A stretch of 64,000 bases of DNA, taken from positions 555,923 through 619,922 of the forward strand of contig ML996698.1 of assembly GCA_010356995.1 (NCBI GenBank), read 5' to 3'. Both the position numbers and the translations under genes were made by a program. The notes under the pieces were generated by a model. The model was not told where the DNA came from and did no database searches. It saw only the letters and a program-made list of their open reading frames with translations. Shown here in pieces: positions 1 to 20,213 of the stretch; positions within the stretch are counted from its first letter, which is position 1; every line of letters begins with the position of its first letter. Source of the DNA: Trichodelitschia bisporula (taxonomy: Eukaryota > Ascomycota > Dothideomycetes > Phaeotrichales > Phaeotrichaceae).

Positions 1-2352
1 GGCGGAAAAACAGCACCGCCACTAATCGCCGCCGCCAGCAGGGCACTTCCATCCTTCGTCCACCGCCCCAAGCCCCGCAAACTCGTCGCGTACAGGATGC
101 TGAAGATCGGGCCCTCGGCCGCGTAGAGTAGCATGAGCACGACCTCGGTCTGCGGCCCCCGGGGCCGCGTCGCGAGGATAGAGAGGACGAGCAGCGCGGC
201 GTAGGACGCGAATAGTACGTATCGTGGCTTGACAAGTGTGCATAGCGCGGCGGCGATGAAGCGGCCCCCCGTGAACACGCTGTGTCCGATGACGCCCGTG
301 TCGGACTTTTCGCCGCGCTGGGTCCGCGGGCCGAGAAGATACGCGATGCCCGAGACCGAGACGCTCTCCTGCGCGCCGAGGTAGCAGAACTGCGCGATTA
401 CGCCGAGAGCAAGCGTAACGAAGACGACGCGCGTGCGGTAGCCGCCCGGGAGAGTAATTCGCGCGAGATGGGCGTCGTCAGAGCGCGCGGAGAAGGCCTC
501 GAGCTCGGCGTCCGTGGCTTCGGGTAGCGGGATATAGTAGTACAGCACAGCGAGGAGGACGACGATCAGTGCGATGCCGAGGTATGTCCACTGGACGTCG
601 ACGAGGGAGGCGGTGTGCGGCTCCGCGGCGCGGAAGAGGACCTTTTGCGCGAGGAGGGGCGAGACCACGGAGCCGATTGCTTGGACGGCTTGAGCGAGTT
701 GCAGCCGGGCTTCCATGTAGCGTGGCGGTCCGCAGAGGGCGACGAAGGGGTTGGCGGCGATTTCGAGGGAGGAGAGACCGAGACCGACGATGAAGTTGCT
801 GACTACGAAGGCGGGAAAGGAGGTTAGGACTGCCGAGGGCCAGAAGATTAGCACGCCGCAGGCGTAGATGCAGAGCCCGATGATGAAACACGCCTTGAAG
901 CCCCAGCGCTTGAAAACCAGCCGACCAAAGGACAGCGTGCCGGCGAAGTAAGCCGAAAAATAGGCTGAGTGGATCCCTAGTTTCTGTGCTGTGCCCATTT
1001 CCACTTTGCGCTGGAACTGCAAGTTTATCGCGTCGAGAAAGCCGTACGCAATTCCCCAGATGAAGAAGAGGATGGTGACACAGAGGTTTGGTAGTAGGCA
1101 TTCGCGCGCACTGAGCCCAATAATGCACTTCCGCCGCGGACTGATGTCCACAAAATCAAAGAATCGTTGCGGCGAGGAGCGCGATGGGGCGATATGGCTG
1201 CCACCTGTGCGCGTGCGTGCCAGCATATCCGGCGTCGTTAAGAAGTCAATCATGTCGACGGGCTCTTCTTCGACGGGCTCTTCGTCGGAGCGCTCCGCAT
1301 CGGCCTCAGTGGCCACGACGGGCCGCTTCGGCAGCTCCAGAGCGCGAGGCACTCCTGGTTGTGCATCTTGCGTAGTGACTTTCTCGCTCTCTCGCTGTGA
1401 GGAGTTTCCCGGATCGCGGAGGATGCGCGGCATGAAACGAGATACCAGTGGTTTCAATCCTGGGACGCAGGCGCACATGATGCCGACATTGACCTCGATG
1501 GCGGACCACATGTAACTCAGGGAAGCGTACCAAGCAACGTCGGTCTTGTTTCGTACGTCGGTGGCCAACTCTGGGTCTTTGCTCTGCATGTCCAAGCGGG
1601 CCGTAAGTGCTTCTTGCAGGTACGCGATGCGAATAACGTCGACAACCGCAACAAAGAAGCCGAAGCCGAAGGTAATGACAAGAATCGTTTTTTGCTTCTT
1701 GGGTAGCCGCATGCCGGTTAAAATCGGCATGGGTAAGAACAAGATGGCGAGGTCGGTGATGATGTTGACAGGTGCCGAAGATAAATACAATGTCACGATG
1801 TCCTGGCAGCGGTCCGTTTCCAGGACAGGTGTGGCAAAGGCGGCGCCCACTGGACGACACTGAAAGATGTTGAGGAAGGTGAGCGCCAGACCGGCGGCGT
1901 TGACAACCATCAGAGTTACGAGCGTGGCCCATCTGAAGATCTTTTCCGACTTGGACAAAGTCAAGTAAAAGAGGAGGATGGAGGTTTTGGTGGCCATGAG
2001 GGCCGGGTTCTGACGGGTCAGCCTGCCTTGATCGTACACGTTCAAGAATACCTACATAGAGCACCGAGAACGCATACTCTGACTTCTTAAGCGGCGAATT
2101 CCAATCGTCAGGAATAGCTGCCTGATGCCGGCCCAGGCCGACGGACGTGCCATAGCAAATCGCGAAGGACAGTCCAAAAGCTATGCACCAGGCCAGAATC
2201 ATGAAGTAGTCATCAAGTGATACTCGACGCACAATCCCAAACTTGGACACCAGGCGCAGAACCACGAACAGAGTCGACAGCACCAGCATCACCGCCGTGA
2301 CTACCAGCACGGCGGGGCCGCGACTAGGTAGGTCCGGGTCCTGTGGATGCAT
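1..2352 (-). CDS. Fungal rhodopsin-domain (SAT4-like) protein fused to a FucP-type MFS sugar transporter; 3' end outside window
   Basis: Exon 1 is 2352-2056, a 46-nt intron spans 2055-2010, and exon 2 runs 2009 to the window edge, giving at least 768 residues. Residues 1 to about 290 look like the fungal integral-membrane rhodopsin/SAT4 family: several hydrophobic helices, SLDDYFMILAW after helix 2, and the late ACVPGLKPLVSRFMPRIL segment where such proteins usually leave the membrane. About 100 polar, acidic residues follow. From about residue 388 the protein is a glucose/galactose (FucP-like) MFS transporter, with ARECLLPNLCVTILFFIWG and GLSSLEIAANPFVALCGPP. I read every codon between 1380 and 999 and found no stop, so both halves share one frame. 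The start at 2352 is the Met just before the first helix; the frame stays open upstream to 2529. A separate MFS gene starting at Met 1253 is possible, but the rhodopsin part would then lack its own stop codon. Confidence 0.8.
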
Positions 2353-11229: not shown

Positions 11230-13209
11230 ATGGCCCTTCCCATACAACCCACGTCGCGATGGCGATGGGGACTGGCGTGGATGGTGTTTGGCCTGATGGC
11301 CTCGCTGTCGCCGGTTATGGCGGATAAAACGTCAGCCGACTACTTTGTGAGCTCGTTACCTGGAGCGCCAGGTGGGCCTCTGCTGAAAATGCATGCTGGG
11401 TGAGTCTTACAAATGTTTTCTCGACGTTGGACTGAATGTGGTAGGCACATCGAGATTACGCCTGAGCACCACGGGAACCTGTTCTTCTGGCATTTTCAAA
11501 ACAGACATTTGGCAGACAGGCCGCGCACTGTAATATGGCTCAACGGTGGCCCTGGATGCAGCTCAGAGGACGGAGCTATGATGGAAATCGGCCCATACCG
11601 AGTGCGCAAGGGCGGAAAGTTGGAGTTGATAGACGGTTCATGGGACGAGTTTGCCAACCTCCTCTTCGTCGACAACCCCGTGGGTACCGGCTTCAGCTAT
11701 GTGGATACCGACAGCTACGTCAGCGAACTGGACGAGATGGCCTCGCAGTTCGTACAGTTCTTGGAGAAGTGGTTTTCGATCTTCCCGGAGTACAAGATGG
11801 ACGACGTAGGCTGCCGCTTCCCTTCCGCTAATTATACTGACTCTTGCTAGATCTACCTTGCCGGCGAGTCTTATGCTGGTCAACACATCCCGTACATCGC
11901 TCGCGCCATCCTTGACCGCAATAAGGGCCATCAAGCTGATTCGTGGAACCTTCAAGGTCTTATCATCGGTAACGGTTGGATCTCTGGTGTTCATCAGTAT
12001 CCGTCCTACCTCCAGTATGCCTACGAACATGGGCTCGTCAAGGCTGGGACGGAAGAAGCGACGCAGATCGAAAGGCAACAGTTGCTCTGCCAGGAAGAGC
12101 TCTCGAAGGGTGGCAAGGATCATGTCGATGTCTCGGCATGTGAGGATATCCTGCAAGAGATCTTGGTGGCGACTTCCACCAAGAAGGGAGATACCCAGAT
12201 GTGCCTGAACATGTATGACGTCCGCCTGCGGGACGAGTACCCCAGCTGTGGTATGAACTGGCCACCCGATCTGCCAGACGTCACGAGCTACCTCCGCCGC
12301 AGGGATGTCATCGACGCTCTACACGTTAACCCGGACAAGCGCACGGGGTGGATGGAATGCAACGGCGCTGTGGGCAGTGCATTCAACGCCCGCGACTCTA
12401 AGCCGTCCTACCAGCTCCTCTCGGGCCTGCTAGCCGAAGTGCCCATCATCCTCTTTTCCGGCGACCAGGACCTGATCTGCAACCACATCGGCACCGAAGA
12501 ACTCATCCACGACCTGGAATTCAACGGCGGCAAGGGCTTCGAAATCTCACCAGGCGTGTGGGCACCGCGGCGCGCATGGGAATTCGAAGGCGAACCCGCG
12601 GGCATCTACCAGGAGGCGCGCAACCTTACGTACATCAAGTTCTACAACTCCTCGCACATGGTGCCCTTCGACTACCCGCGCCGCTCGCGTGATATGCTCG
12701 ACCGCTTCATGGGCGTCGACATCGCCAGCATCGGCGGCATCCCGACGGACTCCCGCATCGACGGCGAGAAGGGCCCGCAGACATCCGTCGGCGGACACAC
12801 CAACAGCACCGCTGCGGAGAAGGAGCAGTCTACTAAGCTACAGGAGGCGACCTGGCGTGCGTACGCAAAGAGCGGCGAAATGGCCCTCGTCGTCGTCATC
12901 ATCGCTGTCTGCATTTGGGCTTACTTCGTCTGGCGCGCACGGCGGAAGCACGGCGGTTACACCGGGCTTCCCGGGTTGGTGCCCGATGGCCGGGAGGGCT
13001 TCAGGCATAAGCGTGTCACTGTGCCCGATAGGGATCTTGAGGCGGCGGACTTTGACGAGAATGAGCTGGATGATTTGGCGGAGGGCAGCGCAGCGAAGCG
13101 GGGAAGAAACGAGGATATGTACCGCGAGCGTTACAGCGTTGGCGAGGCTAGTGAGTCCGAGGAGGAAGAGGCGGAAGAGGAAGATGAAGGGAAACGACCG
13201 AGAAAATAG
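11230..13209 (+). CDS. KEX1: Carboxypeptidase KEX1 (Golgi serine carboxypeptidase)
   Basis: Exons 11230-11399, 11445-11805 and 11851-13209 (both introns 45 nt) encode 629 residues, the usual KEX1 length. An N-terminal signal peptide ([21 protein letters not shown]) precedes an S10 serine carboxypeptidase domain with [15 protein letters not shown] and NPVGTGFSY. The catalytic triad is S184 (GESYAG), D382 (FSGDQDL) and H446 (SSHMVPFD). A single membrane helix at about 521-540 ([17 protein letters not shown]) is followed by a cytosolic tail rich in Glu/Asp, as in KEX1 proteins. The enzyme trims C-terminal Lys/Arg from secreted peptides after Kex2 cleavage in the late Golgi. The start was chosen because it gives the signal peptide directly. 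Confidence 0.96.
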
Positions 13210-18834: not shown

Positions 18835-20213
18835 CTAAAAAGCATTATAATTAGTTTTGTGAACAGGCTGCAGATCATTCGGTCCCTTATATTCGGACTC
18901 ATGCATATCGAACGACGTCCGCTGCTGAATGACAAGCTTCGTGCCAGAGCTTGACTTGAGTGTATCGAGACCGACGGTGTCGTGCTCCACATCGCCAGCG
19001 TTGCTTGTCGTACGGTTGTAGCCACTGCTCGCAGGGAAGCTGCTTCCTTTCGACGCCGTGGTCTTGGAAAGAGTCTTGACTTTGGTGAAAAGGGAACCAA
19101 ACCGGCCCTTAAAGATCGGAGCCAGGAGAGGCCGAAGGGCTGGAACGCATGCACAAATCTGATTGATTGTCAGTAACGTAATTCCCAAAGAAGAATATCA
19201 TGGTCGGAGAGGGAAAATCGTACGATTGCAACGTCATTCTCAATGGTGCAAGCTAGGAAAGCTGGAGTCTGCCACCAAGTGGCGTCGTATGTCGAGTAAA
19301 ACACCTTCCAGGCATAATAGGTCCTGATAGCACCTGCCGCCGTAACCGCGTACCCAAGAGCCAATAGGCCCGCCACGGCGTACCGCTGGCTCGGGGCCAT
19401 CTTCATGCGCAGAACCAGCGGGATTGGGAGCGTCGTCACCATGAAGTCAACCGTTGTCTTGACCGCACCACCTGCCATAGTGACAGGGCCTTCATTCATG
19501 CATTTCGCATCCGCGGGCGGAGGGAAAGTCCAGGCGGCGTGAACAGGTCTGGAAGATGGGTCAGCACAACTCGACCGACCTAAGGACAGAAATCTAGCGA
19601 CTTACATGCAGATGAATATTTGGAGGAAAAGGAAGACAAAAAATGTGGTTATATTAAAGGCGAGAGCGAGATGGAGCACCCAGCGGAACCATTTCATGGA
19701 GCTCTCGCCGATGAGGCGGTAATAGAAAGTAAATAGCGACAGAACGGTGCAGTTACCTGCGAGCATGAAAAGGATTTTGGAGACATATGCCAGCTTCAAG
19801 GAGCCTATGCGTCCGGGATTAGCCAGCTACCAGACTGCAACCGCAAGCATAAACGTACCTTCCGTCCAAGCGATGGGGATATCCCATATGTGCCTATTCC
19901 ATCCCCAGTGGAGCGCGCCTATGTTGACAACCACAACCATGGCAAACGTGAAGACCTAGACACCGTGCGGTTAGTGACAGCCTGGCGGGAAGATGGGATC
20001 ACACACGAAGGCGGCGAGAATCAAGATGTCATCGAGGCCAAACCATTTTGTGATGGTCAATCTTGTGTAGATCCTCAAAAACACAAACAGGCATGCAATT
20101 GCGAGAAAGACCGCATTGAGAATGACCAAGGTGGGTCCTTGGGTCTGCGGATTCGTGTAGTTTGGTGTCGGCCAGGCCAATATCACTTCCAACGGAGGAA
20201 CCCTCATGGCCAC
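18835..20213 (-). CDS. Fungal rhodopsin-domain (SAT4-like) integral membrane protein
   Basis: Five exons: 20213-20007, 19955-19859, 19804-19606, 19548-19224 and 19158-18835 (introns 51, 54, 57 and 65 nt), 383 residues. The protein has about seven hydrophobic helices and family marks: LRIYTRLTITKWFGLDDILI after helix 2, LAYVSKILFMLAGNCTVLS, and the late ACVPALRPLLAPIFKGRF segment. A polar 110-residue cytosolic tail follows. The family is large in filamentous fungi and of unknown biochemical role; it is named after a rhodopsin-like arrangement, but I see no evidence for retinal binding. It is related to the N-terminal half of the fusion gene at the left end, yet here the gene ends with a normal stop after the tail. 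Confidence 0.88.

Follow-up and report, generated by a model that had tools for sequence, protein, structure and literature searches.

A putative fusion of a SAT4/Pth11-class seven-helix module with a FucP-type transporter in a fungal genome

Three known groups of membrane proteins are close to the predicted product of the gene reported here. Proteins of the SAT4/Pth11 class (class 14, PF20684) form a very large fungal class of seven-helix proteins. In the accessible text of a census of fungal GPCRs, only proteins with six or seven helices were kept for most classes, and hits had to cover more than 75% of both query and target (PMC12842992). The FHS family of transporters (TC 2.A.1.7) includes FucP of E. 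coli, in which Asp46 and Glu135 form the proton path according to the available part of PMC3824880. It also includes RhtA of A. niger, a FucP-type fungal transporter which the available text of PMC5161314 describes as a validated L-rhamnose transporter with putative orthologues in different fungal orders. Finally, transceptors, whose substrate triggers signalling with or without transport, and transporter-like sensors, such as Pho84, Gap1, and Snf3/Rgt2, share the idea that sensing and transport are found in one membrane protein, as set out in the accessible parts of PMC3824880 and PMC12740885.

Gene structure and surroundings

The window, meaning the whole stretch of DNA analysed here, is 64,000 nucleotides long (C12:555923-619922) and belongs to a fungal assembly of 25,654,952 bases (25.65 Mb) in 30 contigs. 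The gene of interest lies on the minus strand at the start of the window, inside a contig of 970 kb. From position 2051 to the window edge its frame contains no stop, so the initial annotation was right that the minus frame stays open through the region between the two modules. Beyond the edge, the end of the frame was read in a longer stretch (L005, C12:551000-560000), where the frame runs to a TAG at C12:555625 (window coordinate -297), an ordinary end, and measures 782 codons from stop to stop. The first 14 of these codons are intronic, and the remaining 768 codons therefore constitute exon 2.

Exon 1 (2056-2352, minus strand) begins with an ATG at 2352 and encodes residues 1-99, which comprise helices 1 and 2 and the start of helix 3 of the SAT4 module. 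It lies in a different frame from exon 2, and the first part of the PF20684 match is found in this frame. The two exons are joined via a canonical 46-nt intron (2010-2055, minus strand) with a GTAGGT donor, a CTGAC branch-like site, and a CAG acceptor. Splicing yields an open frame of 867 residues without internal stop and unites both PF20684 parts into a single full-length match. Position 2352, the end of the range given in the initial annotation, is the ATG of this first exon. At the other end of the gene, the last ~100 codons (window -296 to 2) receive a negative coding score in their own frame, and they nonetheless align with the last helices of a standalone FucP paralogue described below.

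A partial look at the surroundings, in which 10 nearby open frames were compared with Pfam (two from L005 and eight from a list of 20 between window 3401 and 12400), revealed no sugar-catabolism cluster around the gene. Two of these frames matched serine carboxypeptidase and two matched AhpC/TSA, one of the latter under the cut-off, and six had no match. In the serine carboxypeptidase (Peptidase_S10) gene at window 11404-13209, which we take to be KEX1-like, a hydrophobic stretch is followed by a long C-terminal tail of acidic character. The opposite strand downstream of the fusion gene carries an AhpC/TSA (peroxiredoxin) gene (L005 2064-2877) with apparently two exons and an N-terminal part rich in alanine and lysine. 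A tRNA-Ile (GAT) gene (L005 3817-3894) is also found downstream, outside the window. Four pairs of imperfect inverted repeats that surround the fusion gene were set aside as chance.

The two membrane modules

The Fung_rhodopsin (SAT4/Pth11-class) domain occupies window 1437-2259 on the minus strand, intron included, and corresponds to residues 32-290 of the spliced protein. It matches positions 1-237 of the 237 in PF20684 with 196.2 bits (E 8.1e-58), well past the curated cut-off of 27 bits, and hydropathy gives seven peaks. The inner loops carry charges of +2, +2, and +4, and the outer loops -1, 0, -1, and -1; an N-terminus outside and a C-terminus inside fit these charges and the hydropathy. 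Judged by profile and helix count, this half of the protein is an ordinary SAT4/Pth11-class domain. No CFEM domain was found in the spliced protein by Pfam, and the 190 residues of the SAT4 half that are encoded by exon 2 have no sequence match in the PDB. The best-scoring SAT4 paralogue among the loci fetched from this genome (L007, on contig C4) is 30% identical over 227 residues.

SAT4 genes are numerous in this 25.65 Mb genome, which contains 65 exon-level PF20684 matches, two of them from the fusion gene. Outside the fusion gene, the frames that hold these matches never exceed 507 codons, a test that would miss fusions with an intron between the modules. Thirty SAT4 loci were fetched, and in 18 of them the match reaches at least profile position 224. 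Seventeen of the 18 reach an in-frame end no more than 171 residues further on; the fusion gene is the only one that continues. The shortest in-frame ends after the domain probably lie at introns. An example is the 11 residues of L020, the window's second SAT4 gene, in which a further exon supplies an ordinary tail with a stop near 18836; this gene ends normally, as had been noted at the outset.

The second half of the protein is a transporter of the major facilitator superfamily (MFS) of FucP/FHS type, which extends from residue 408 to residue 867 (window 1085-1, minus strand, and past the window edge to the TAG). The initial annotation correctly recognised an MFS protein here, of which it saw the N-terminal half; the transporter is complete and runs past the window edge. 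On the spliced protein, PF07690 matches residues 408-799 with 47.5 bits, above its cut-off. Hydropathy shows eleven peaks in the transporter, and the twelfth, its helix 2, is below threshold and was placed by eye, which brings the hydropathy count for the whole protein to 19 helices. The inside/outside bias of the loop charges is weak in this half. A match of the spliced protein to Gemini_mov (E 0.05) is under its cut-off and is attributed to chance.

The relation to FucP is clear at the level of alignment. The transporter matches the sequence of E. coli FucP (3o7q) with E 3.8e-30 over 367 residues (residues 53-419 of the 421-residue query) and the fucP model TIGR00885 with E 5.8e-44. Nine PDB matches to the MFS part were obtained in all, two of which are FucP; the other seven sequences are galactokinase (E ~0.007), which are considered chance. 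The NCBIfam equivalog cut-off for L-fucose permease is 280.4 bits, and the fusion transporter stays below it at 150.9 bits with a query that ended at the window edge. A complete standalone paralogue is also under the cut-off, at 195.2 bits, and identity as a fucose permease is accordingly unsupported by the NCBIfam score for this FucP-like protein. FucP Asp46 and Glu135 align with D and E in the fusion transporter, whereas Asn162 is replaced by Q and Tyr365 by F, and the same changes occur in the standalone paralogue. Asn162 matters in FucP. Given the FucP relation, the proton-path residues, the fucP scores below cut-off, and the example of RhtA, it is fair to regard the protein as a predicted sugar-proton symporter of FHS type, with perhaps a deoxy sugar as its substrate, and not fair to call it a fucose transporter.

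When the whole genome was searched with the MFS part, just two FHS-type places came up, the fusion gene and the standalone paralogue (C9:243849-245426), which has five exons, encodes 465 residues, and is without a seven-helix part. The two transporters are 47% identical in the N-terminal half and 34% identical in the less conserved C-terminal half. The divergent stretch around helices 7-8 (~window 240-400) aligns with the paralogue without gaps; a compensating frameshift or a missed intron was considered there and rejected, since no other frame looks paralogue-like by eye. Between exons 2 and 3, the paralogue has an apparent GC-AG intron with a GCAAGT donor (C9:244190-244232; L006 4191-4233).

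The linker and the case for one polypeptide

The two modules are connected by a linker that reaches from the last SAT4 helix to the first MFS helix (window 1083-1442, minus strand; residues 289-408, 120 residues). An acidic linker of roughly 100 residues had been proposed at this place; a linker is present, and it is 120 residues long, contains 17 K/R and 20 D/E, and is acidic in its centre. It has no Pfam match, and a protein search with 117 of its 120 residues found no second copy in the genome. Likewise, when the fetched loci were scanned for motifs resembling the linker, matches came from the fusion gene only. The linker contains a tandem direct repeat of 15 nt (window 1255-1284, minus strand; L005 6178-6207) in two copies that are 93% alike, the length of which preserves the frame. 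Because the SAT4 module is predicted by loop charge to have its N-terminus outside and its C-terminus inside, the linker would be cytosolic. MFS proteins of the FucP kind start in the cytosol, and the predicted placement of the linker fits this location of the MFS N-terminus.

Openness of the linker is modest evidence on its own, since 3.45% of 2000 dinucleotide-shuffled versions of the 354-nt linker also kept the frame open and one antisense frame is likewise open. The case for the join is carried by the joint evidence, to which the frame-preserving repeat and the presence of just two FHS-type places also belong. Scored with a codon table built from 11 other open frames in the window (3512 codons), the linker's own frame has the best coding score of the six frames in both halves. 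The score is 0.205 against 0.027 for the next frame in the first half, and 0.031 against 0.020 in the second half, where the margin is negligible. A simple pattern scan of window 1000-1560 revealed no candidate GT-AG intron that has a fair donor, branch site, and acceptor (GC-AG introns were outside the scan), and none of five TATA- or polyA-like words. Production as one polypeptide, which we infer from the DNA alone, is well supported at that level, and the gene probably encodes one polypeptide with both modules, of which the transporter half is of FHS type. Points on the other side are the changes at FucP Asn162 and Tyr365, the lower conservation of the transporter's C-terminal half, its fucP score below that of the paralogue, the negative coding score at the end of the gene, and the weak loop-charge bias in the MFS half. 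The natural fusion of a SAT4 module with a twelve-helix FucP-type transporter that was originally suggested is thus backed by the DNA of the gene, by the domain scores, and by the other SAT4 genes of the genome.

Other explanations would separate the two modules. The locus might give two products, a SAT4 protein and an MFS transporter that starts at an internal ATG or is released by proteolysis. The linker does have an in-frame ATG at 1251-1253 (minus strand) and another at 1226, either of which could begin a separate MFS protein, and its charged composition also counts in favour of this reading. However, the linker has no stop, so that the SAT4 part would lack a stop of its own, and the pattern scan offers no GT-AG intron candidate and no TATA or polyA-like word. 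The coding signal also runs on without a break, though it is weak in the linker's second half, and two products are regarded as improbable. It is far harder to accept that an assembly or sequencing artefact joined two genes. Such an artefact would need to erase a stop and yet leave behind a codon-biased, in-frame linker of 120 residues, within a contig of considerable length, and a protein search finds no second linker copy in the genome.

A further reading does not compete with the single polypeptide and is a variant of it. Here the fusion is real and serves as a mere tether for co-localisation, in which the seven-helix part is neither a receptor nor a regulator of transport and the join sets stoichiometry or trafficking. 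The predicted topology permits this, and the lack of a PDB sequence match for the exon-2 part of the SAT4 half is in keeping with it. Nothing speaks directly against it, and full-length modules are expected whether the tether is passive or regulatory. This passive variant has a substantial probability that falls somewhat short of an even chance.

Possible function and comparison with known systems

If the single polypeptide is produced, the two-exon gene would give one membrane protein of 867 residues and 19 helices. In it, a SAT4 module of seven helices, its N-terminus facing outwards, would be followed by the cytosolic, acidic-centred linker of ~120 residues and then by a complete FucP (FHS) symporter, so that both modules would lie side by side in one membrane. 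The transporter half may use proton symport to import a deoxy sugar or a related monosaccharide. The seven-helix half may work in cis by way of the tether, either as a receptor or as a regulatory partner, for the transporter or for signalling that the transporter's substrate sets off. Regulatory coupling between the modules is a tentative proposal that we hold to be on the unlikely side. Somewhat more doubtful is the specific idea of a receptor-tethered transporter, in which sensing of a sugar or another signal would gate uptake, or uptake would report to the receptor, within one molecule. Such a layout could link sensing to uptake within a single molecule, and a sensor-transporter role is what we infer from it. 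Since the relatives of the transporter carry deoxy and other simple sugars, the ligand of the receptor-like half might, as a sensible starting guess, be the transporter's own substrate. A natural SAT4-transporter fusion is therefore a testable hint on that ligand and, if the receptor-tethered reading is true, would give a handle on what a SAT4/Pth11-class protein senses.

The SAT4-FucP layout appears to be undescribed among the matches listed in a literature search that covered titles and the starts of abstracts, with most subscription papers outside its scope; this agrees with the initial annotation, which knew of no described protein of this kind. The accessible portions of PMC12842992, PMC5307856, PMC4683645, PMC5425790, and PMC12370193 make no mention of it. 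The layout may already be present, unremarked, in public fungal proteomes. Searches among viral contigs with the MFS part or an alignment as query, and among prokaryotic contigs with the 683-residue frame, confirmed no relative, a result with no bearing on fungi. Linker-like pieces (DFLTTPDM, FFDFV) may also be present in other fungal proteins, in which case the layout would be more widespread. With 19 helices by hydropathy against the 6-7 applied to class 14 GPCRs, and with the mutual coverage demanded in the accessible text of PMC12842992, the fusion protein would be discarded by that census. Surveys restricted to 6-7-helix proteins, as that one is for most classes, would miss such fusions.

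The first module agrees with SAT4/Pth11-class proteins in its full-length domain, its seven helices, an N-terminus outside by loop charge, and a charged cytosolic tail. The difference is that in the fusion protein this tail does not end and runs into the transporter. Compared with the FHS family, the second module is alike in its relation to FucP and in the equivalents of Asp46 and Glu135, and it differs by the N-terminal seven-helix module and by Q and F at FucP Asn162 and Tyr365, a comparison made with the sequence of FucP. The proposed protein resembles transceptors in logic and not in build, because in transceptors the transporter fold itself senses (accessible text of PMC3824880), whereas here, as known from sequence alone, a separate seven-helix module is attached to the transporter.
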